A program made the position numbers and the translations under genes. From contig OX155976.1 of NCBI GenBank assembly GCA_944548615.1, positions 755,954 to 819,953 of the forward strand: 64,000 nt of DNA, read 5' to 3'. This DNA is from Micropterix aruncella (lineage: Eukaryota; Arthropoda; Insecta; Lepidoptera; Micropterigidae). The notes under the pieces were generated by a model. The model was not told the DNA's origin. It saw nothing but the letters and a program-made list of their open reading frames with translations, and searched no databases. The first letter of the stretch is position 1; each line of letters starts with the position of its first letter. Of the stretch, positions 9,396 to 38,090 are shown one piece after another.

Positions 9396-10016
9396 ACCTC
9401 AGGAAGTTTTAACGATTAGTCGTTCTATCTCCCTGGAGTGAGCGCAGAAGACTTGGCAGAACATTCCACCGTCTAGCTCCGCCACAAACCCGTAAGAGGC
9501 CAACGCCTTAACAGCGAGATAGCCAGGAGTGTTACCCGGCGGGCCTACACTCACGCCCTTACTTCCAATTGTGACCAGATCACTCCAGTCTCTCGATTGG
9601 TTACGAGTTCGGGCTCCCTTACGAAGCGGTGAAACGGTGTATACCGAATCTATCGCGGACCACGGCATCCTTTGCCCGGCTGTTCACCTAGGATCGGATA
9701 GCCGACGGTCGTTTCAAGAGCAGTCGCCGTAAGGTCCGCAACCACACCCGCTCTATATAGGAAACAGTACTGCTTCCAGACTCCCCCGACTGTTAGTCAG
9801 AGTGCGCAATCGATTGGCTTATGCCGCATGGTGCGCAGACCGTCCAGGAGCGCCAGAAGTTTGATTCACAGGGGAAACTGACCATAAGGCCAGAGTCCTA
9901 CCCGGGCTCGCACTTCATGCGTGGAGGCCGTCGGATAGGTGTTGACCCGTGAGTGTGACCAACCCTGAACAGAATGGGTCTTCGTGGCCAACTCAGCAAG
10001 GGCCCATTAACTCCCC
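9396..10016 (-). repeat. R620 retroposon copy
   Basis: Minus-oriented and nearly full length. It begins (on its own strand) near GGGGAGTTAATGGGCCC at 10016 and stops about 25 bp short of the usual 3' end, at CTTCCTGAGGT. Immediately beyond its 5' end, 10019-10080 resembles a second diverged R620 5' segment. Confidence 0.8.
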
Positions 10017-10080
10017 ATGAATTGGACAGACCCCAAGAAACAATGGATTTTATGGGCCAAGCTGAACGAAACCGTTATCT

Positions 10081-10526
10081 ACCATATTTTTTCAAACGTA
10101 AGAATTTGGCGCCCCTTTAATAATTGTCGCCCGGGGCAGAAACCCCAGTTTGCACCCCATCCCCCGCGCCTCTCCAGATCCGCGGCTGACTCCTATATAG
10201 AATGATGGGCGAAAGGTCGGCTACATCGGATATCGGGCACGGTACCCGTAGAATAAGAAAAAACACAACAAATATTCATCGATCCATAAGCAATACTGGC
10301 CGGTAATGGCTCCCCGAAAGGTCAAATATTGCTAATAATAGAAGTAGGGGTGGAAAATGGGCAGTGGTATTTAAAATATTTAAATTACCAACCCGCTGTG
10401 GTGACAGTTTATAAAAGGAAATGTCGAAGCGTTTCCACACCTTTTATAAAAAGCTTGAAAGAGTTACGATTCCATGAAAAACTTTAAATCAATGAACAAC
10501 ATGAAATTGTCTTCATTATTACTAAT
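10081..10526. other. Unassigned region
   Basis: It contains a GC-rich stretch (GTCGCCCGGGGCAGAAAC near 10126) that looks like a transposon terminus, and AT-rich DNA after 10260. No gene was found. Confidence 0.35.
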
Positions 10527-10996
10527 CCAGTGAATAGAGGGGGGTTACCTTACAAACGGTCCGGTAGTTCTGAATTTTTGATATGTTGTCTAAGATAGTT
10601 AGTGAGTGTTAAAAGTTTGACAAATTTCCGGAAAATTCGATTTCACAATTCACAATTCCCCCCCTTTCCGTGCCCGCCGCCATATTGAAAAAACTGAAAA
10701 AAATCGACAATTTCTTCAGATTTTCGCTTATATTTTCGTTTAGGTGCATTTTAGCTAGAAAAGATTTGTATACAATATTGTAGAGAATTAAATTTCCTAT
10801 AATATACGATTTAAAATTTGTTTCTAGGACAGATAGTTACCAAGATATGCACTTCTTTAAAAATGAGAAAAATCGAATTTTCCGGAAATTTGTCAAACTT
10901 TTAACACTCACTAACCATCCTAGACAACATATAAAAAATTCAGAACTACCGGACCGTTTGTAAGGTAACCCCTCTCTTTTAATCTCTATTCACTGG
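10527..10996. mobile_element. 470 bp foldback MITE
   Basis: Inverted repeats of about 120 bp lie at each end. The left arm starts CCAGTGAATAGAG and continues GGGTTACCTTACAAACGGTC, with CCGGAAAATTCGA at its inner side; the right arm carries the reverse complement of all of these. The arms differ by small indels and there is no coding content. A target duplication is not clear (flanks ...ACTAAT and ACTATAC...). Confidence 0.75.
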
Positions 10997-11007
10997 ACTA
11001 TACTCGA

Positions 11008-13038
<2,031 letters not shown>

Positions 13039-13046
13039 TCCCCCGT
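13039..13046 (-). promoter_or_regulatory. Polypurine tract
   Basis: On the minus strand ACGGGGGA lies directly before the TGTAACG start of the 3' LTR. This is the position where plus-strand synthesis is primed in LTR retroelements. Confidence 0.7.
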
Positions 13047-13822
13047 ACCACCGTTAAAAAAATTAAGCGACCTTAATTTTTTTCTCCGCCAACAACTCAA
13101 CCCTTCCAAATTCCGGTGAGTAAACCATCTTGACGTGATACCTATTAGGTTAACCTCAAAATCAAAAAACGAACGACTCTGCAGACTTATATCGCAAAAC
13201 GCCAGTGAAAACCTAGTTCCGACTATCTAACGTATAACAATAAACGCGTGTTAACGTTCCGCACACGAAAAACTGTTTACAAACGTAAATCAAAATTGCA
13301 TTGTGTCAATAACCACGTTGACCCAATTTTGCAATTCGACACGGACTACAGCCTGTCCCAAGATCAACAATTAGAGATCGGGAAAGCATTATAAGCACTG
13401 GAACCACTCCCAGACTGTAGCTACTGGCCTGTTTCTCTAATCAGTGCGAGGACATACTCTAATATTCATCTCATTCATTCCTCACTAAATCCATCCACAG
13501 CCATTCTACTGGGACACCTATGAGAGCCTCAGACCATTCATAATACCGTAGCTCATAAAAATTTGATCTACGAAAACCTCCTCCGAAACTACCACAAGTT
13601 TATTTAACGTAAATGTCCAAACATTTCAGCACTTATGCCGTCAGCCGTCCCGGTCCGCACCAAAAGCTGCTGCGAACTACATGCTGCTGATCATTCGAAA
13701 CCCGTAAGTTTTTTTTTTTTTTTATTCAAGTCTCCCCTATCTTTCACTACTAATATTTTTTAAAAATTTAACTATGGTACAAGTAAATATTGGTGATATA
13801 ATTTTCAACAAAAATTAAGAAG
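13047..13822. other. Non-coding 3' internal region of the Gypsy-like element
   Basis: Between the integrase stop and the polypurine tract I see no open frame of note. An A/T run lies at 13708-13722. Confidence 0.5.
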
Positions 13823-14711
13823 CTATGTCCGTTGGTCTACTGTCGACAACTCACTGGTACACCCGTTTACTTTAAAGTCTTTTGCGTGATAATCGCCTGG
13901 CAATAATTTGCCGTCTAGTGTTTCGAGTTTGAATACTTGATCGCACAGTTTTTCAGCGATACGGAATTTTTCGTAATTGGGTGCCAGTTTGGATGAAAAT
14001 CCCTTGCCTTTATTGGACAAAAATCTAGTCTTTTTCCATACTATGTCACCTTTTTTCAAGGGTAAATGTCGTCGGCCTTGGTCATAAATTAATTTATTTT
14101 TGTCATGTTGTTTTGACAAATTTTCATTGACCTGTTTAAAAATCCTTTCCAGAACGCCAACTCTCTCTAGACGGTCGTCTTCTTCTGGTGACATCAAGAC
14201 CTCCTGGGTTTCGGCCAAAGACATCGCGGCATAAACTTCTCCACTAGAGACAAACTCACGACCGAATACCAAAAAGTTTGGGCTGTAACCACTGGCTTCT
14301 GACCGAGCTGCGTTCAGAGCAAACTGAAATTCAGATAGGTGAGCATCCCACGTTTTATGATTTTTACTGGCAAATGCCGTCAACATTGAGTTTAACGTAC
14401 GATTATATCGTTCGACCGTGTTTATTTGAGGAGAATGATATGGAGTATTAAAGATGGTCGGTATATTATAATCCGAGAAAAATCTCTTCATCTCCTTGGA
14501 TATGAAGGGTTTGCCGTTATCCGACAACACCACTCTAGGTATACCATGAATAAGGAATACCCTTTCCCGAATTAACGGTATCATAGACGCTGAAGTTGCC
14601 TCTTTAAGCGGTATGACTACGCAATATTTGCTAAAACAGCAGGTGACCAATAATATGTACCTGTGTTTATTTTTGGTCATAGGTAAAGGCCCGTGTACAT
14701 CGAGAGCAATA
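13823..14711 (-). pseudogene. Gypsy integrase fragment with intact DD35E triad
   Basis: The frame covers the integrase catalytic core and C-terminal region. The first acidic residue is in LDVHGPLP just upstream of the first methionine, the second in LSDNGKPF, and the glutamate in HSPQINTVERYNRTL, with 35 residues between the second and third. A basic tail (KKGDIVWKKTRFLSNKGKG) follows, typical of the Gypsy integrase C-terminal domain. The frame is cut at 14711, immediately before the first catalytic residue, where it joins inverted LTR sequence; the zinc-finger domain, RNase H and reverse transcriptase are absent. It would need the missing N-terminus to work. Downstream DNA (13047-13822) shows no env-like frame. 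Confidence 0.85.
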
Positions 14712-14713
14712 AC

Positions 14714-15008
14714 TTAGTTTAAATTGTTTGAATATTAGTTTGCATATTTTTTGAATATTAGTCTTAGTTTGAATATTAGTTTAAATTGTGTTTTATACTT
14801 ATAACGTTTACTTGTTTTAACCTATTAAGGTAATATTTGAAGGATAGGGTTTAGCCATATCCTTCACCCTAATTTATATTTATCCGCACAGACCTCCACT
14901 GTGCCGAGTGTGCATAAATTAGGCAAAATAAAGAATTTAGAAACATCACTTCTTTTTAGTTTATAGTTTCTACATATTCTATATATATAGACCTTTTTAT
15001 ATGTCACA
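14714..15008 (+). repeat. Inverted LTR 3' end (U5 side) with stuttered junction
   Basis: From 14768 to 15008 this is the last 230-240 bp of the LTR, in the orientation opposite to the element. Before it, 14714-14767 contains broken partial copies of the same edge: TTTGAATATTAG occurs at 14727, 14749 (approximately) and 14768, and TTAGTTTAAATTG at 14714 and 14776. The LTR end ...TGTCACA is followed by TTA and then the primer-binding sequence. Confidence 0.75.
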
Positions 15009-15011
15009 TTA

Positions 15012-15087
15012 TGGCGCCCAACGTGGGGCCCGAACCCACGACCCTGAGATTAAGAGTCTCATGCTCTACCGACTGAGCTAGCCGGGC
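15012..15087 (-). tRNA. tRNA-Lys(CTT), full length with encoded CCA, probably a reverse-transcribed primer
   Basis: On the minus strand a complete 73-nt cloverleaf is followed by CCA. The acceptor stem is GCCCGGC/GTTGGGC, the D arm GCTC-AGTCGGTA-GAGC, the anticodon arm TGAGA-CTCTTAA-TCTCA with anticodon CTT (lysine), and the T arm GTGGG-TTCGGGC-CCCAC. Eukaryotic tRNA genes do not normally encode CCA, and no T-run terminator follows within 60 bp. The 3' end instead joins TAA and then inverted LTR sequence, exactly as a primer joins minus-strand strong-stop DNA. The only departure I can recall from insect tRNA-Lys(CTT) is G at position 58, normally A and m1A-modified. A real gene hit by two elements is less likely. 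Confidence 0.85.
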
Positions 15088-16014
<927 letters not shown>

Positions 16015-16256
16015 TGGCGGATCCAGGGGGGGGGCTAAGGGGCTGAAGCCCCCCCCAAAACATAAATAAACAAAACTTTCAGATTTGTTACTAAACTGTA
16101 TATTAAAAATCTGTTAGTTCAGCTCAAAATTTAGAGACAGCACCAAAAAATGCTACATCCAAACAAAACAATCCAGAATCAGCTGATTGAATGTTGCCAT
16201 ACTCTAATTATGAAAAATATAATAAAAAAAGTGAAAGAAGCAAAATATTACGCTGT

Positions 16257-16852
16257 TGTGAGAATGGCCACCCTTCACTAGACTCCAATTGATTGTGAGC
16301 GAAGGGTGGTTCTCATCATGAAGGTTGCTCCGTTAATGAGAGTCGTATATGTCCGTGTAGAAGAGTTTATTCAGAAGTGAGTCGAAGTCGCCAGTTCTTA
16401 ACGCCTTGAGTCGTGTTCGCCGTTGTGTTGTAGTTTGGGCGCGAGGTGAAGCCGTGGCGGTCCGTGTGTAGTCGAGGAGCGAAGTGTGTAGTCGAGATAT
16501 CTGTCCACTGAGGGGACGATGTGCAGAGCGCGGTAACTGTCTGCCGAAGTAATGATGTAGAGGTGTGTAGGTGTACTTGACCACCAAAGGAATGATGTGT
16601 AGAGGTGTGTAGGTGTACTTGACCAGCAAAGGAATGATAATGATCGAATGCAATGTACTGCGTTTTATAGGGTGATCGGTGATGCAATAGCTACGAGTGG
16701 GGCGACGCATGTGTCGCTAACCTGGGCAATATTTGCCAGATTTAGCTGGAAATTAACTGCAGCTGCGCGTGCAAGTTTGAGCGAGTCTGCAGTTTTCTGT
16801 TCTGTGAAATTGACTTTTTTGTTGTGGGTATGTAGGGCCGTAGGCTCCTACA
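16257..16852 (-). repeat. LTR (3' copy), 596 bp
   Basis: On the plus strand it reads TGTGAGAATGGCC ... GGCTCCTACA. It contains a near-perfect internal tandem of about 47 bp (ATGATGTGTAGAGGTGTGTAG type) around 16550-16640. It appears identical to 18816-19411. Confidence 0.9.
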
Positions 16853-17256
16853 TGGCTCCCCCCTAGTGAAGGGCTTGCGTATGACAATATGGAAGGTCTT
16901 CACGACAAAGTGGCAAAAAAGTCGGAGTGTGACAATTAAAAGTGTGTGTGGGGTTGTGTTCGCGAAAGTTTGGGAATCGTATGTTTTTATGCGAGTGTTT
17001 GACAGTTTGAGAACCGTATGTTGTTATGAGTGTCGAAGGCATTTCGTTACAATGTGTTAAAAACTGGCGCTGTTATAAAATGTTGACAATAAGGAAAAAT
17101 AAATGAATACAATGGACAATGGTTAGTATAAACGCTGACATAATAAAATTCGCTGTACGTGAAACGAGTGAATACAATGCAATATGTTACGCGCCGAACG
17201 ATAAAAATGATTCGCGCGGCTTAAAAAAAATGTGGAGCATATGAATTAATAATAAT

Positions 17257-17821
17257 TTAGCGCGATAAGAATGCAATCTGAGTAATTTCGCGCGCGTGAC
17301 GTCTGAAGTCCATTGTTTGTTTGTTGCGCATTCGTGTGGACTTCCGGTCTTGAAGTTGAAGATTCCCGATAGTAGCTGTTTTGGAGTGCGGCGCCTTGCT
17401 TCTGCGAATGAGGTCGTACAGTTCGGTGGTTTTAGTCAGTGAGTCGCTAAACCATTCGGTCGACTTCCAAATTGCTTCGACTATGACGTCGTATCCATGC
17501 GTGTTGTGTGGGAATCGCTTCTGTTGTTGCAAGTGGGATAATATCGCCGATTTTACGCTTTGAATGAGTGGTTTCGCTATACCGTCTATTCTCGGCGTTT
17601 TGTAATTTTTGTGGGTGAGTCGGCTTCAGCGTGCTGATTAGCGTAGTCCATTGTTGTTTTTTTGAGGTTGGTTGTAGCGTTTGATTTTTTGTGATCGGGT
17701 ATGAATGCTGTGGAGTGTGAGTTCCATCCGTTTTGCGTTTTCGATGTTGATATTCTTCCGCTGCGTGGTTGTTTCCGTTTCGTAGTGTGTTTATCGATTG
17801 AAATTGTGATTGAGAAGGCAT
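17257..17821 (-). pseudogene. Possible gag-like remnant inside the LTR element
   Basis: Two overlapping minus frames (17821-17447 and 17532-17257) together form about 180 codons. The first is hydrophilic (HRKRKTDGTHTPQHSYPITK), the second reads HGYDVIVEAIWKSTEWFSDSL and KTTELYDLIRRSK. They look like one frame broken by a frameshift near 17450-17530. No zinc knuckle or recognised domain is present, so gag is only a guess from position. Confidence 0.25.
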
Positions 17822-18796
17822 TTAGGCCGATAGTGTCCTTGGTCAGCTGTTAGTCTATACTGGACCTAAGTGCCATTCTCCCGGATGTTGCGCCTGCAGG
17901 TCATTAAGCTGCAGAAAACGTCTTACTGCTGTCCGGTGAAGAGTGTGAAGCGATTGTGACGACTTCCTTTCGTAGGATTTTACCTGAGAGTGTATCAATG
18001 ACGGTTTCGCCTGTACAAGTCCTCAGGGCCGCACATCGTTGTTTTTATAAAATTCGTTAGCGTTCGTTGTTTTGATCCGAGATAAGTGCTGTATGAATGT
18101 GGCATTGGTAATTGCGCGTGCTGATAATGTCGTTTAGCCATGACCGTGGGTGTGTGTTCGTTGATTGTAGGTGCCGAGTATATTTTTAAATAAGTCGCGT
18201 GAGTACTTGCTTACTGCTTATTGGTAGAAGTACTTGCGAATGTGTTGCGGGAAATTTGCTTCCGCGGTTGATGCAATGTCTGCATTTTTATTAATCGAGC
18301 AGGAATTTCGTCTGCTTTTGCGTTGTTGTCGTTTTGTAGTGGCACCGGTCGTCGTCGTTTGGCTGTTTATTTGCGCTGAGAGGCTTGTGTGGTGTCGTGT
18401 TTCGCTGAGTCGTTATGCGTTTTATTGTTTTACTTGCTAGGCATGACCGATGTTGTGAATGCATATTGTAGTTGGTGGTCATGCGTAGCAAGGATCATTC
18501 CTTTTGGCTTATTTTAGTGGTTGACGTGTCGCCTTAATGATTTATTGAAGTCCTCCGTCCGTTGTTGTGAGAATTCGCTCGTTGATTGACGGGGTTTATT
18601 TGCTTCCATTTTCTGCTGATTTGATATTTGAGACGTGGAAGCGATGACTCGTCGTCGCGCGTGATATGTTGGCGTGCGAAATTATGATGCGGCGATCGAG
18701 TTTTTTGGCGATGTGGCGTTTGTTTGCGCGTGTCTGTGAATCTTGTGGTGTCGGTGTATTTTGTAATGGCGAATATGTAGGTCAGCTGGCCGCTTG

Positions 18797-18814
18797 ATCA
18801 CGTCGGGGTCACCA
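18797..18814 (-). promoter_or_regulatory. Primer binding site, tRNA-Trp
   Basis: TGGTGACCCCGACGTGAT on the minus strand, one base after the LTR end. It matches 18 nt of the complement of the tRNA-Trp 3' end including CCA. Confidence 0.8.
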
Positions 18815-18815
18815 A

Positions 18816-19411
18816 TGTGAGAATGGCCACCCTTCACTAGACTCCAATTGATTGTGAGCGAAGGGTGGTTCTCATCATGAAGGTTGCTCCGTTAATGAGA
18901 GTCGTATATGTCCGTGTAGAAGAGTTTATTCAGAAGTGAGTCGAAGTCGCCAGTTCTTAACGCCTTGAGTCGTGTTCGCCGTTGTGTTGTAGTTTGGGCG
19001 CGAGGTGAAGCCGTGGCGGTCCGTGTGTAGTCGAGGAGCGAAGTGTGTAGTCGAGATATCTGTCCACTGAGGGGACGATGTGCAGAGCGCGGTAACTGTC
19101 TGCCGAAGTAATGATGTAGAGGTGTGTAGGTGTACTTGACCACCAAAGGAATGATGTGTAGAGGTGTGTAGGTGTACTTGACCAGCAAAGGAATGATAAT
19201 GATCGAATGCAATGTACTGCGTTTTATAGGGTGATCGGTGATGCAATAGCTACGAGTGGGGCGACGCATGTGTCGCTAACCTGGGCAATATTTGCCAGAT
19301 TTAGCTGGAAATTAACTGCAGCTGCGCGTGCAAGTTTGAGCGAGTCTGCAGTTTTCTGTTCTGTGAAATTGACTTTTTTGTTGTGGGTATGTAGGGCCGT
19401 AGGCTCCTACA
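18816..19411 (-). repeat. LTR (5' copy), 596 bp
   Basis: Same sequence as 16257-16852 by eye, including translated shadows that are residue-for-residue equal, which implies very recent insertion. Confidence 0.9.
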
Positions 19412-19796
19412 CTGTACTTGGCGACGAAAAAACAGATGCTAGGAGCAACTGAGTATATGCATCAGGTACTTGGATATACAAAAGAGCACAATACATGAAG
19501 AGTTCATGTGCTTTTTATCTGCAGTTGACTTGAGTGGTGCTGCTTTGAGCGATCACATTCTTCAAGAATTAAATCGAGCCGGCCTGCAGACTGAGAACTT
19601 GAGAGGTCAAGGTTATGATGGAGGTGCCAATATGTCTGGAAAGTTGAATGGTGTACAAGCCCGCCTAAAGCAGGTCCAACCGCTTGCTGTTTAAGATGCG
19701 ATTCCACCAGTGTGCAGAACTGTGCGGCACTGCAATGCACATTGTGCGACACAAATGTTTATTCTGGGCGACTCACTAAAGCAAACAATAACAAAT

Positions 19797-19830
19797 TGTG
19801 CGCGAACATTCTAGAAATGTTCGCGCACAT
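19797..19830. promoter_or_regulatory. Subterminal palindrome, probable transposase binding site
   Basis: GTGCGCGAACATT and AATGTTCGCGCAC flank a five-base centre CTAGA. Single arms recur at about 19892 (TGTGCGCGAAC), 19942 (TGTGCGCGTAC) and, near the other end, 22244 (TGTTCGCGCACA). Confidence 0.6.
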
Positions 19831-19976
19831 CTGTATACTTTTGTGCGCGCACACATGCAGGCAGTGGACTCGCGTCGACGTGTACAAACCTGTTGTGCGC
19901 GAACTCAGTCTTGCTTCCGCTACCGGAGTGAAAACATTGATTTGTGCGCGTACATTGTTAATTAACCAAGCTAAAT

Positions 19977-21715
19977 ATGGATTGGACGAATGATAAAATT
20001 ATTAATTTTATTCAAGCTATTGAAACTTATCCTGTATTATGGGATTCTAGTCACAGTGATTATAAAAATAAAAACAAAAAACACGACGCCACTCAAGAGT
20101 TGGCCCAAAGTTTCAATTGTGACTCGACTGAGGTAATGAGAAAATGGAAGATTATTTTGGCTCAATACCGAAGAGAAAAGAAGAAAATCGCGGACTCAAA
20201 ATCTTCAGGTTCTGGGATTTTAGATATATATAAGCCGAAATGGTTTGCTTATGCATATTTGAATTTCTTTCATGGAAGGGATGAGCCGAACGTCAGCTTG
20301 AACTCACACGACGAAATAAATGAACAGGTAGGTACGTTTTAAATGTTTATTTTCTTACCTCTAATATTATTACTTAGATACCTATACTATTTACGCCAGT
20401 GTTTCTTGCCATGGCACCATTCCGATGTCAGTTTGGAAATAATGTGCAAATTCTTCTCTTATGTTTTTCGCATCGCCAGGGGTCTTCTTCCAACATGTCT
20501 TAAAGGCAGTAAGTTTGCCATGCCTGCATCACGCCGCCAACTTCCATCGATAGTGCAATGAGTAATTTGGTTCTCAGTATCAAAACAGCCAGCAGAAGTA
20601 TAAAGTTGTGAAGACGATTTTTGTGTTATCAAAAAATTATGCAAGTAACAACATGTCAGTGTTATCAATTGTGTCTTTTCTGGAGCTAACAGAATAGGTT
20701 TCCTGAGTACGCGAAATACACCGGACATAATGGCGAATACGTTTTCCACAATACGTCTCGCTCTGCTCAACCGATAATTAAATATTCTCTCTTTTGATCT
20801 TTTGTCATGTTGACCGGGATATGGTTTCATTAAATTTATATCTAACGCAAAAGCATCATCTGCCACAATGACATGTGGAATTGGTTTGTTCCTTCCGGGT
20901 AACGGGTAAGGTTCAGGCAAATTTAATTTTCCTTGCTGAAGATTAGCATAGAAACCAGTATTTTTGAAAACACCACCATCCGATATTCTTCCTTTACAAC
21001 CGACATCTACGTACGTAAACTTATAATTTGCATCAACCAGTGCTAAAAGCACAATGCTGAAATCACCTTTGTAATTGAAAAAGTCGCTTCCAGTATTACT
21101 TGGAGCTTGAATAACAACGTGTTTGCCATCCATAGCCCCAATGCAATGAGGGAAATTCCAAAGATGGTCAAATTGGCGCTCTAAGATCATCCATTCTTCT
21201 AAAGTGTTAGGCATCTGAAAAAGGAAATTTTATTACTATTTCAGGTATCACAAGATATTATTATCCAGAATGACACAGTAAATGAAGATCAAGAGTCTCT
21301 TCATGAAAGGCCAGTCGAAAAGTTTAAGGCTCCGAAGAACTCGCTTAAACGCCGTATTGTCGATGAAGACCCGAGAATCGCCCAAGCTTTGTCCATTATG
21401 AATAACGTAAACAAGCAGATGGAAGCAAAAAAACCTGATGACGAAGACATTTTTGCTGCAGCCGTCGCAACGAAATTAAGGAAAATTAGAGATGAGCGAA
21501 CCAAGATTTTAGTACAAAGGGATATAGATAATTTATTGTATGACGCTATTATTGGTACTGGAAAATATGTTACAACTCCAATGCCTTCACCGTATTCAGA
21601 TTCGTCAAATTGTCAGAGTCAAGGACCGGCTTCAAGTTTTCAGGTCCGCGATAATGATTATTCAGATCTTTTACGTCAGAATGATGACGAAACAATATCT
21701 TGGCATGAAATGTAA
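19977..21715 (+). CDS. MADF-BESS protein of the Harbinger element (two exons)
   Basis: Exon 1 is 19977-20327, exon 2 is 21245-21715. The donor is CAG/GTAGGT and the acceptor TTACTATTTCAG/GTATCA; the join keeps phase and gives about 273 residues. Residues 1-105 form a MADF DNA-binding domain (NFIQAIETYPVLWD, then VMRKWKIILAQYRREKKK, then WFAYAYLNFF). The C-terminal part has a BESS-like segment (DIFAAAVATKLRKI, DERTKILVQRDIDNLLYDA), known for protein-protein contacts. In Harbinger elements the Myb- or MADF-type partner helps the transposase reach the nucleus and bind DNA. Exon 2 sits inside the transposase intron. No stop or frameshift is visible. Confidence 0.85.
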
Positions 21716-23383: not shown

Positions 23384-23829
23384 ATAGGCTACATATTAAT
23401 CTGTCATAGGCTATATATTAATCCGAAAAATGAAAAGACTTTTTCGTGGTAGTCGGATTTCCAAAGTAAGTCGGAAAAAACGGTCGAACGTAAATGTTTC
23501 TAACTAACGCTGCCTTAACGATGAGAGATATATGATTAAGTTCTAGAGAAAAGTTGTAGAGCTTGATAATGCCTACAAAAAAGTAAGCGACAGCATATGT
23601 CTAACTTTTATATTTAAGTCACAAAAAGTAGTTTATCTAATTAAAAAAATAATTTAAATCGTTAGGTCATGTTTATTTTTCATATTATCAACAATTATGA
23701 ATTATTATCAAAATAAATAAATTTATCGTCTCATGTGTAAAACAAAAGACTTTTCCCTTTTACTGCATAAATAGCTAAAGGATAATACGACATAGGTATG
23801 GAACCGCGACCGTGTCGTCTGTCTGTACT
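23384..23829 (+). repeat. Helitron internal segment, first of two tandem copies
   Basis: About 370 bp here (GGCTATATATTAATCCGAAA to TTACTGCATAAATAGCTAAA) repeat at 23948-24345 with few changes. The block ends with the AACCGCGACCG motif seen in the Helitron at 1242-1690. Confidence 0.65.
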
Positions 23830-24571
23830 TCTATACTAATATTATAAAGAGGTAAAGTTTGTGACGTTGTAGGAAGTAATCTCTGGATCTACTAAACCGA
23901 TTTTGAAAATTCTTTTACCAATAGAAAGCCACGTTATTTTTGAGTGTTATAGGCTATATATTAATCCGAAAAATGAAAAGACTTTTTCGTGGTAGTCAGA
24001 TTTCCAAAGTAAGTCGAAAGAAACGGTCGAACGAAAACGTTTCTGACTAACGCTGCCTTAACGATGAGAGATATATGATTAAATTCTAGAGAAAAGTTGT
24101 AGAGCTTGATAATGCCTACAAAAAAGTCAGCGACAGCATATGTCTAACTTTTATATTTAAGTCACAAAAAGTAGTATTTCAAATTAAAAAAATAATTTAA
24201 ATCGTTAGGTCATGTTTATTGGTCATATTATCAACGATTATGAATTATTATCAAAATAAGGAAATTTATCGTCTAAAGTATTTAAAACAAAAGACTTTTC
24301 CCTTCTACTGTATATAATTTCACTTTTACTGCATAAATGGTTGAAGAGATAAGACACTCACAAATAAGAAACTCACAAGAAGACACTCACAAATATCGGT
24401 ATATAGTCAAATTGGCATGCAAATACATACATACATATGCAGTAAAAATATAACCCTTCCTTTGGTAGTCAGGAAATAAATCTTAGCAATCAGTACTAAC
24501 AAAACCACACTCATAATTTCATCACAAGTAAAAAGGTTTACCGCCCAACTAAGTGGGCACGGGTCAGCTAG
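23830..24571 (+). mobile_element. Non-autonomous Helitron nested in hAT
   Basis: It starts TCTATACTAATATTATAAAG and ends with a hairpin (CCGCCC...GGGCACGGG) followed by TCAGCTAG and T. There is no terminal inverted repeat and no target duplication, as expected for rolling-circle elements. The last 220 bp match the minus-strand element at 1242. Confidence 0.75.
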
Positions 24572-24638
24572 TTTACTGATATAGCTATTAGCGAGACCGA
24601 CCCTCAGCCCCCCCCAAATATAAATCCTGGATCCGCCA

Positions 24639-24641
<3 letters not shown>

Positions 24642-24731
<90 letters not shown>
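24642..24731. repeat. (TA)n microsatellite, right tract
   Basis: About 90 bp of TA right after the hAT end, followed by the continuation of the dispersed repeat seen at 11008. Confidence 0.95.
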
Positions 24732-24734
<3 letters not shown>

Positions 24735-26447: not shown

Positions 26448-26613
26448 GGAGGTAATAGTCCCTGTTGGAGTTGGCCACGAAGACCCATTCGTTCAGGGTC
26501 TGTCACACTCACGGGTCAACACCCATCCGGCTGCCTCCACGAAGAAGTGCGAGCCAGGGTAGGACTCTGGCCTTCGGGACAGTTGCCCCAAGGAGTCAAC
26601 TTTCGGGCGCTCC
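26448..26613 (+). repeat. R620 5' fragment
   Basis: It begins GGGAGGTAATAGTCCC and stops at TTTCGGGCGCTCCA, so it covers only the first quarter of the family. Confidence 0.7.
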
Positions 26614-26634
26614 AATTTCTGGTTCTTGGTCCAG

Positions 26635-27257
26635 TGGGGGTTAATAGGCCCTTGCTGTGTTGGCCACTAAGACCCATTCTATTCAGGGTTGGTCACACTC
26701 ACGGGTCAACACCTATCCGACGGCCTCCACGTATGAAGTGCGAGCGTGGGTAGGACTCTGGCCTTATGGTTAGTTTCCCTTGGCAATCAACCTTCTGGCG
26801 CTCCTGGACGGTCTGCGCACCATGCGGCATAAGCCAATCGATTGCGCACTCTGACTAATAGTCGGGGGAGTCTGGAAGCAGTACTGTTTCCTATAGATCG
26901 GGGGTGGTTGCGGACCTTACGGCGACTGCTCTTGAAACGACCATCAGCTACCCGATCCTGGGTGAGCAGCCGGGCAAAAGATGCCGTGGTTCGTGATAGT
27001 TTCGGTATACACTGTTTCACTTCGTAAGGTCGTAATCAATCGAGAGACTGGAGTAATCTGGTCGCAATTGGAAGTAAGGGCGTGAGTAACACTCCTGGCT
27101 ATCTCGCGGTTGAGGCGTTGGCCTCTTACGGGTTTGTGGCGGAGCTTGACGGTGGACTGTTTTGTCCAAGTCTTCTGCTCTCACTCCAGGAAGATAGAAC
27201 GACCAATCGTTAAAACTTCCTGTGACGGGCTCGCCCGCTGTAGTCGACAACTCTAGT
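26635..27257 (+). repeat. R620 full-length copy with 14 bp target duplication
   Basis: GGTTCTTGGTCCAG lies immediately before (26621-26634) and after (27258-27271) this 623 bp unit. The unit starts TGGGGGTTAATAGGCCC and ends GTAGTCGACAACTCTAGTT. There is no poly-A tail. This copy defines both ends of the family. Confidence 0.85.
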
Positions 27258-35736: not shown

Positions 35737-38090
35737 TAGTCATTGTAAATGCAAGGCGAACAGGAAACTGCAAACGCCTAAATTGAAACGGCAAGTCGGT
35801 TGGAATCAGTGGTATCCTTGGAATCAGAACATCCTTGCCTTTGAACTTTCCTATGATTATCGTAGCTTCAATTACGTTGTTCATCAGCTTCTTAACATCT
35901 AGTCTTGTTCCATTGCACAGTCTTGGTTGGTTCAAATTGCGTAACATGATTATCACCGAGCCGATCTTGAGTTGCAAATGGTGCGGCGGCATTCCCGGCA
36001 AATCCAATGACTTCAGGAGTTCCGTAGGGCAATTGACGACTTCATCTGGATCGGTAATGTAATCGATCGACTAATATGAATGCAATTGTCCATCTATTTC
36101 ACTTTGAATTGATAGGTTCAAATTGTCTACGTCCTTATTTTTCGCTCCCAAAATGGCTCCTTCGCTCAACCAAACATGGTTTTTGTAATTTTTACCAATA
36201 TTAGGGAACACTTTCATGATCAATTCTTCTTTCGAACTTGTGAATTGACAAAAATCAGGTGGGAATGAAATAAAGCCAGTGGAAGCGTCAATTGGTATTT
36301 TTCCATTGCCAATGTCTAATAATTGTTTAGAAAACACTTTCGCCGATTCGTCATTTTGTAACGCGACGCGCATATTCGTTTTTAACTTGAGAATTTTCAC
36401 GTATCTCCACAATTTCGATGACTTCAAGCATGCGTTAATTTCATCAGCAGCTGTTGATCGTGGAATGACTGGCAGCGTTTGGCGAAAATCGCCGGCCAGC
36501 AGAATCATCGTACCTCCAAAGAGGTACTGATTGTTTCGCAAATCTTTTAACGTTCGATCGAGTGCCTCCAATGCTCGTTTGTGAGCCATCGTACACTCAT
36601 CCCAAATTATTATTTTGCAATTCTGTACTTTTGCCATTGCTGATTTTTTGGAAATATTGCATGTCGGTTCATCTATAGTTTGCAAATTCAGTGGCAGTTT
36701 GAGCGCAGAATGAGCTGTTCGTCCGCCTTCTAACAATGTGGCAGCGATCCCAGATGATGCTACAGCAAGCGTTATTTGACTTTGTGCTCGAATCGTAGCT
36801 AAAATCAATGAAATTAGGAACGTTTTGCCAGTTCCGCCAGGTGCGTCTAAGAAAAGGATTCCTCCGTAGCCGTCTTTGACTGCTATCATTAATGTGTCGT
36901 ACGCGGTTTTCTGCTGCTGATTCAAAAGTGGGACCATTGTTCGTACTGACTGACTTAGAGCATTACGATCGTATTGCCGTTCTCGTTCAAATTCTCGATT
37001 GAATGCATCGTGCATCGGGCGATTCGTTGCTGGCATTTCTAATTCGTGCAACATCTTGCCGGCCATTATCTTGCACAAATCTTTTATAGAAATCAACGCC
37101 TCGTTATGTATCTCCGTGTTAAATTCAAGTTCAGGATTTGCTGTTATTGTACGCACTCGGAGCAAAATGTCTTCAGCCATATTGTCTTTTATATGTTCCA
37201 CAAATGAGGTCGGTTCGATGGAAAACACGTTGAAATGACGATTGCAAAAAGTGATCGAATTTGATGTGTAGAAGAGGAAATAACAGCATCATCGAGTGTG
37301 TGATCCCAATGAATGTCATCCTCGAGCAAATGTAAACATTGACAGGCTTCTCTATATGTTGCGCATAACTCGCCATTGACAGTTCATAGAAATTCAAATG
37401 AAGTCGGTCCACGAACATTAACCAATAAATAACGCAGGTAAAAACATTCGTCATTGCTGGGATGAATTGTGTGAATGCGCCCCAATGCATCGGTTGAATA
37501 TATATTCACGTATCCAGGAACAGGGTTTCCTTGATTCCGTTTTTGGATTTTTTTTGATGTTGCGTTCCATGTGAAATATCTCTCAAAGTAAAGCAGTGTT
37601 CTTGCAAATGGATCATATGCGCAAGTCGCAAAGAAGCTTGTCAGCGTTGTCGCTGGTGGTCGTTCAGCTCTCTGCGCTGCGTTTGCTGCCGTGAAGCAAA
37701 CTCGTTGTCCATTTTCCAGGTGCACAGCTAAATGGACCACAGTGGGATGACGTTCTTGTATGGAGAATGAAAAGATTCTCCACACCGCCTCATTGCTGCT
37801 GACATATCTTCCCATCTGATATTGCGAAACTTCATCGTTTGCATCTGGAACTGAAATACCAAATACAGCCATGTCGCTTCATTTCGTGACGAACTTGCAA
37901 ACGTATTTGATTGATTTCACAGAATTGCACTACTCAATATTGCAATGCGCTTTGAATGTTTTGGAAAGCAGTGGCGAAAACGGAACAATCCAGCTGTTGT
38001 CGACTACAATGTCTTTATTTTTGACTTTCAAAGTTATCGTTCTGCCGTTATGTAGTCGTTCTATTTTTGACTTTTTCATTTTCTTTTTTA
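35737..38090 (-). pseudogene. Helitron Rep/Pif1-like helicase remnant
   Basis: From 5' to 3' on the minus strand: DNSWIVPFSPLLSKTFKAHCN (near 37995, end of the Rep region, with stops); 37872-37384 (VSQYQMGRYVSSNEAVWRI, LLYFERYFTWN, GRIHTIHPSNDECFYLRYLL), the Rep-helicase linker; a frameshifted stretch 37383-37229; 37228-36071, the Pif1/RecD-type helicase core with Walker A DAPGGTGKTFL, Walker B IIIWDECTMAHK and GDFRQTLPVIP; then, after one TAG at 36068, the C-terminal motif GMPPHHLQLKIGSVIIMLRNL. Several stops and at least one frameshift show it is dead. Confidence 0.9.

Follow-up and report, generated by a model that had tools for sequence, protein, structure and literature searches.

A complete tRNA-Lys(CTT) copy in primer-type arrangement inside an aberrant Ty3/Gypsy-type LTR element of Micropterix aruncella

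Structure of the element and its surroundings

The window (the whole 64-kb stretch of DNA that was analyzed) harbors a single aberrant LTR element of the Ty3/Gypsy type at positions 11386 to 15916, lying on the minus strand within a (TA)n tract. Its complete 3' LTR (11386 to 13038, minus strand; TGTAACG...TGTCACA) is 1,653 bp in length, with bounds defined by an inverted 241-bp copy and a direct 830-bp copy of its own sequence and by its TG..CA ends. Adjoining this LTR is a purine-rich tract, ACGGTGGTACGGGGGA (13039 to 13054, minus strand), which to judge from its sequence is likely the polypurine tract; TG...CA ends next to such a tract are those of a Ty3/Gypsy LTR. After 768 unassigned bp, an integrase ORF of 285 aa without its 5' end occupies 13823 to 14680 (minus strand). 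The product contains a core domain of the retroviral/Ty3 type: it matches Pfam rve (E value, 7.3e-11) from profile position 21 onward, and its sequence matches in the PDB include Ty3 (7q5b) and the PFV integrase. Among its 17 relatives, the 9 with species names are all from Lepidoptera; the highest identity to any of the 17 is 63%, across 37% of the query. An integrase pattern gave 28 matches in viral contigs, none of which was confirmed. Judged by eye, the likeness to the relatives extends to VIALDVHG at about 14713, where the reading frame encounters a stop codon. The integrase ORF is the only one of more than 115 aa between 11386 and 15916, indicating that gag, RT and the start of the integrase are absent from this copy. 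With neither gag nor RT/RNase H, it is a deleted copy and not an intact member of Ty3/Gypsy.

The 5' LTR and the upstream genes have been replaced. Read along the plus strand, the antisense integrase, cut near 14713, is followed by 54 bp of filler (14714 to 14767), the last 241 bp of the LTR in sense orientation (14768 to 15008, plus strand), a TTA spacer between the LTR end and a primer binding site (15009 to 15011, plus strand), the complement of a tRNA (15012 to 15087), and the first 829 bp of the LTR in antisense orientation (15088 to 15916, minus strand). The sense block corresponds to LTR positions 1413 to 1653, is identical at 241 of 241 positions, likely represents R-U5, and is inverted relative to the rest of the element. 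Its terminal CACA at 15008 is the true end of the LTR, matching the terminal 241 bp of the complete LTR on the opposite strand. The antisense block, which represents U3, corresponds to LTR positions 830 to 1 (829 of 829 identical, or 830 when a shared G at 15087 is counted) and finishes in a normal LTR terminus. The two blocks together show no difference in 1,070 bp, and each is unbroken up to its junction. When positions 10000 to 20000 were compared with the window by BLAST, 14768 to 15012 was recovered as the inverse of 11382 to 11626 with a single mismatch outside the 241-bp block, and 15081 to 15916 as a direct copy of 12202 to 13038 with a single gap at the tRNA junction; the other output consisted of simple repeats and two further pairs. 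Both outer termini of the element are normal LTR ends embedded in (TA)n (left flank, 11376 to 11385; right flank, 15917 to 15926). Any even length of target duplication fits both flanks, and the (TA)n would mask such a duplication.

The filler is itself largely derived from the LTR. All of its matches of 10 nt or more fall within LTR positions 1412 to 1434, in sense orientation only, and they form three re-entries (1421 to 1434, 1413 to 1427 and 1412 to 1425) that account for 42 of the 54 bp, with the other 12 bases lying outside them. A single 9-nt match elsewhere, at LTR position 499, is likely due to chance. The pattern looks as if a polymerase had stuttered at the 3' end of a template ending at about LTR position 1412. 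Two motifs fit such an end being the start of R: an initiator-like TCATTG at LTR position 1402 fits a putative R start at about 1404 to 1412, and an AATAAA polyadenylation motif at 1572 fits both that start and an R-U5 assignment. The first motif also occurs at 460, and the second at 473, 477 and 527.

The neighborhood is rich in other repeats. Identical 596-bp direct repeats at 16257 to 16852 and 18816 to 19411 (TGTGAGAATGG...CTCCTACA) have CTGT on both sides and enclose no ORF that reaches 150 aa; this stretch (16257 to 19411) has the appearance of a non-autonomous LTR element of young age, and such an element would likely mean that a source of active RT is present in the genome. Beginning at 15921, an inverted pair (15921 to 16027 and 24626 to 24732), consisting of (TA)n and then CAGTGGCGGATCCAGG, presumably represents ends of the DNA-transposon type; a DDE_Tnp_4 ORF lies between its members (20459 to 21214). 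Further repeats are a 111-bp inverted repeat at 10533 to 10980 (95% complementary, arms 226 bp apart), 300-bp direct repeats at 23402 to 24244 (spacing, 543 bp; 95% identity), and two neighboring, tandem-like repeat families at 26492 to 26804 with a spacing of 190 to 191 bp and 80 to 90% identity. A PIF1-like helicase ORF at 36071 to 37228 is possibly derived from a Helitron. The window also encodes an R1-like RT. Among the best 120 of its 143 relatives, those with names are mainly from Lepidoptera and aphids, with beetle, crab, nematode and fluke sequences also present, and the top matches show at most 50% identity.

The tRNA copy, its junctions and base 58

The only tRNA that ARAGORN reports for the 64 kb is a tRNA-Lys(CTT) of 76 nt, CCA included, at 15012 to 15087 on the minus strand, exactly where the sequence-only reading had placed it. 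The Rfam tRNA model covers 15015 to 15087 with 60 bits against a gathering score of 29, and all 21 stem pairs (21/21) are standard. A 21-nt piece of the tRNA, with up to 2 mismatches allowed, matches the window once, whereas 100 shuffles gave 0.00 matches on average; the match is not due to chance. Patterns for tRNA-Lys gave 0 matches in viral contigs and 0 in genome contigs.

The surroundings of the tRNA are those of a primer. On the plus strand the order is ...TATGTCACA-TTA-TGGCGCCCAACGTGGGGC..., in which the LTR end, a spacer of 3 nt and a primer binding site (PBS) of 18 nt are followed by the remaining complement of the tRNA. The PBS (15012 to 15029, plus strand) is identical to the Lys1,2 PBS given in PMC1084362. 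In tRNA sense the sequence reads tRNA-CCA-TAA-TGTGACATATAAAAAGG..., with the 3' CCA followed by the complement of the spacer and then by antisense U5-R, and this order is the one expected when a tRNA primer is extended on element RNA to give minus-strand strong-stop DNA. The join of tRNA, TAA and LTR end had been proposed from the letters alone to be that of a primer to strong-stop DNA, and the exact LTR end bears this out. The element around it had been read less fully. The tRNA does lie inside an LTR element, but the arrangement is not an ordinary 5' LTR and PBS in which the PBS is too long; the element is a deleted one in which this piece lies in reverse orientation, and the 1,653-bp LTR, the inverted R-U5, the U3 copy at 15088 to 15916, the filler and the change at base 58 are all additions to the earlier picture.

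On its 5' side the tRNA copy ends at nucleotide 1 without any leader, and the adjoining base belongs to U3. This junction (junction 2) reads GCCGGGC, where the corresponding LTR sequence is GCCGGGAC. Had copying ended at nucleotide 2, GCCGGGAC, including its A, would be expected, and the simplest reading is thus that tRNA nucleotide 1 was copied as well. The simplest account of the junction itself would be that the copied end re-annealed to the LTR with one bulged base. A homology of this kind, either exact or with one skipped base, arises somewhere in 281 of 5,000 shuffled LTRs, and its role as a re-annealing site is suggestive only. The claim that the whole tRNA was copied and integrated agrees with this anatomy, in which both mature ends, 5' and 3', are preserved.

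The base after PBS position 18, singled out by the sequence-only reading for comparison across other copies of this LTR, was read in the window's copy, where it is C on the plus strand and corresponds to G58 in the tRNA (position 15030, minus strand). Compared with human tRNA-Lys(CTT) as printed in PMC8216282, the copy is equal at 72 of 73 positions, and A58G is the sole difference. In the Rfam consensus, A is conserved at position 58, and from this conservation we infer that the tRNA-Lys(CTT) gene of the host has A58.

Position 58 is the methylated base at which primer copying normally stops. In HIV-1, m1A58 is described as the main stop of plus-strand strong-stop synthesis: native tRNA mostly halts RT, unmodified tRNA is copied through to its end, a modified A37 acts as a minor stop, and m1A58 is found in every retroviral primer tRNA listed in that review (PMC13191261). 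In the window's element, copying went past both sites 58 and 37, and position 37 is unchanged. The stop at native m1A58 is reported to be only partly effective in vitro (PMC1785368), and m1A sites in a template are reported to yield both arrest of RT and misincorporation (PMC4787781). When the 3' neighbor of m1A is G, the C signal among the mismatches is described as low (PMC4787781). The 3' neighbor of A58 in this tRNA is G, so that little C, and hence G or T, would be expected, and G58 fits. Integration of read-through products appears to be rare, as suggested by HIV-1 primed with an A58U Escherichia coli tRNA, for which the integrated PBSs are described as carrying no extra tRNA sequence (PMC1785368).

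Proposed route and alternative explanations

Very probably, the whole primer tRNA was copied while attached to strong-stop DNA. We further consider it probable, with less confidence, that RT copied its own primer from the CCA to nucleotide 1 through m1A58 and that A58G is a misincorporation caused by the methyl group, a germline fossil of an RNA modification. The inverted orientation of the R-U5-tRNA piece within an element that has suffered a deletion calls for two template switches or more, and the following route would provide them. Ordinary minus-strand synthesis would yield the antisense LTR, the polypurine tract and the integrase. At about 14713 the growing end would leave its template for another strong-stop DNA of the same particle, a second one that had not been transferred and whose 3' end was free; three stutters at that 3' end would make the filler at 14714 to 14767. 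Synthesis would then proceed across R-U5 and the TTA spacer into the attached tRNA and reach nucleotide 1 of the latter, with C placed opposite m1A58. The new GCCGGGC end would re-anneal to LTR positions 830 to 837, with one base bulged, and U3 would be copied to the LTR end. The resulting linear DNA, with two proper LTR ends, could then be inserted into (TA)n by integrase. The left end requires its own U5 end from a first primer, which implies that two primed RNAs were present in one particle.

Two alternatives are variants of this route that share its core, the copying of the whole primer. A minus strand might have switched onto its own 5' end, the tRNA-U5-R already transferred, and copied that. 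The same order of blocks would result, and to judge from the map one primed RNA would suffice; however, R is continuous with U3 on the transferred strand, which would have no end near LTR position 1412, leaving the re-entries and the final entry, which start at or after that position, unaccounted for. We regard this fold-back as unlikely. Equally unlikely in our estimation is the joining, by cellular repair, of a separately made double-stranded copy of tRNA and strong-stop DNA to 5'-truncated element DNA and a U3 fragment. Short homologies and filler are likewise marks of microhomology-mediated joining, but a single 23-nt site, copied repeatedly as a stuttering polymerase would do, supplies 42 of the 54 bases of the filler, and the far end coincides precisely with an LTR terminus. 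A somewhat more credible doubt, still improbable on balance, accepts the tRNA copy as described and attributes base 58 to a variant of the host tRNA, an ordinary RT error or a later mutation instead of to m1A. The two published tRNA copies considered below, for HIV-1 and cqgypsy_1, are described without a base change, so that such events do not regularly leave a change at 58 behind. Against this stand the facts that the sole difference in 73 positions is at the modified one, that the consensus letter there is a conserved A, and that the LTR-derived blocks are unchanged over 1,070 bp, from which the chance of a later mutation at one given base is at most 0.0014 (95% bound).

A resident tRNA-Lys gene, with an LTR element inserted beside or into it, would explain the intact cloverleaf with its 21 of 21 pairs. 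A nuclear tRNA gene has no encoded CCA, a nearby T-run and A58, and none of these applies to the sequence at 15012 to 15087: CCA is present, no T-run occurs for 83 nt (the only TTTT within 122 nt past the CCA begins after them), there is no leader, the spacing is LTR-TTA-TGG, and base 58, which lies inside the B box, is not A. The absence of a pol III terminator and the presence of CCA had already been raised from the sequence alone against a resident gene, and we find both to hold; this explanation is highly improbable. A further rival is an assembly or library chimera. The risk of such a join is raised in regions with inverted repeats and long (TA)n tracts; yet the window contains no Ns, and joined genomic pieces are unlikely to give a CCA-ended tRNA that is attached to exact strong-stop sequence and altered only at the base that is methylated. 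We consider such an artifact quite improbable.

Three further structures were considered and rejected. In autointegration products, the CA of the LTR end is joined directly to internal sequence, while here TTA and the complement of the tRNA come directly after CACA, and the LTR end does not lie directly on the body of the element. Normal transfer of plus-strand strong-stop DNA predicts U3-R-U5-PBS in one orientation, and here R-U5 is inverted relative to U3. A TRIM of the Helenus type is excluded by the complete LTR at 11386 to 13038, which contains no tRNA; the only tRNA that ARAGORN finds in the window lies outside it.

Implications and comparison with known systems

The methyl group at A58 restricts primer copying to 18 nt in retroviruses and likely also in LTR elements. 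The evidence that we considered on failure of this stop comes from test-tube assays and cultured cells. The locus described here is an apparent product of complete read-through that was integrated all the same and is changed at the methylated base; if this is true, the methylation state of one tRNA molecule has been recorded in DNA. The identity of the LTR-derived blocks suggests that the insertion is likely young, and it may be polymorphic. The structure also supplies a sequence rule for genome searches, namely, a junction of CCA, spacer and antisense U5 together with the base at position 58. An intermediate consisting of a tRNA and strong-stop DNA has been proposed as raw material for the birth of tRNA-derived SINEs, and the locus bears on the question of whether such chimeras seed new tRNA-derived repeats.

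A literature search yielded no title or opening of an abstract in which an integrated LTR element carries its complete cognate primer tRNA altered at position 58; few subscription papers were covered, making this a weak negative. Several related cases are known. The Helenus TRIMs are likewise LTR elements containing tRNA-like sequence, but as described in PMC10886601 that sequence lies within the LTRs and is not complementary to the PBS, whereas ARAGORN finds no tRNA in the window's LTR. Some HIV-1 variants contain stretches of tRNA-Asp (63 nt) or tRNA-Glu (65 nt); this tRNA sequence was gained by recombination according to PMC12220202, whose account of them does not describe it as joined to strong-stop DNA. 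Closer is an MMLV circle with a tRNA-Gly between its LTRs (Colicelli and Goff, as cited in PMC12220202). There, as here, a primer-like tRNA was copied and retained; unlike the window's element, the circle is described as unintegrated, its primer as spurious, and four 5' bases as absent, and that description mentions no change at base 58. An HIV-1 provirus with a copy of tRNA-Gly (Gurgo and Franchini 2025, PMC12220202) shares with the window integrated retroelement DNA that adjoins a CCA-ended tRNA copy. In the provirus the tRNA is non-cognate, comprises 67 of 72 nt without the 5' end, and lies at the outer end of the 3' LTR, while in the window it is cognate to the adjoining PBS, contains all 76 nt and is internal. 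The tRNA-Gly is reported as a "perfect match" across the 67 nt, and its authors prefer a separate insertion (PMC12220202).

The nearest counterpart is cqgypsy_1, an Osvaldo-lineage element of Culex quinquefasciatus (PMC3286476). In common with the window's element, it is a Ty3/Gypsy element with a long LTR, a tRNA-Lys primer and a CCA-ended tRNA-Lys at the border of LTR and PBS. According to PMC3286476, the LTRs of the lineage measure 997 to 2055 bp in the text and 2137 bp for cqgypsy_1 in the table, the Lys primer is invariant, and the target duplication is short, mostly 4 bp in the Culex table; the window's element has a 1,653-bp LTR, a Lys PBS and (TA)n flanks. By LTR length and primer it fits the Osvaldo lineage, RT being absent from this copy. 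The two differ in their tRNAs. In cqgypsy_1 a tRNA-Lys and a tRNA-Glu, called identical to tRNAs, stand head to head in a 26-nt LTR duplication (PMC3286476), whereas the window's element has one tRNA with A58G, an inverted R-U5 and a jump to U3. The authors of the Culex study propose that mature tRNAs were incorporated after reverse transcription by a transposition-like insertion (PMC3286476). We infer that the mechanism suggested for the window's element would account for cqgypsy_1 too.
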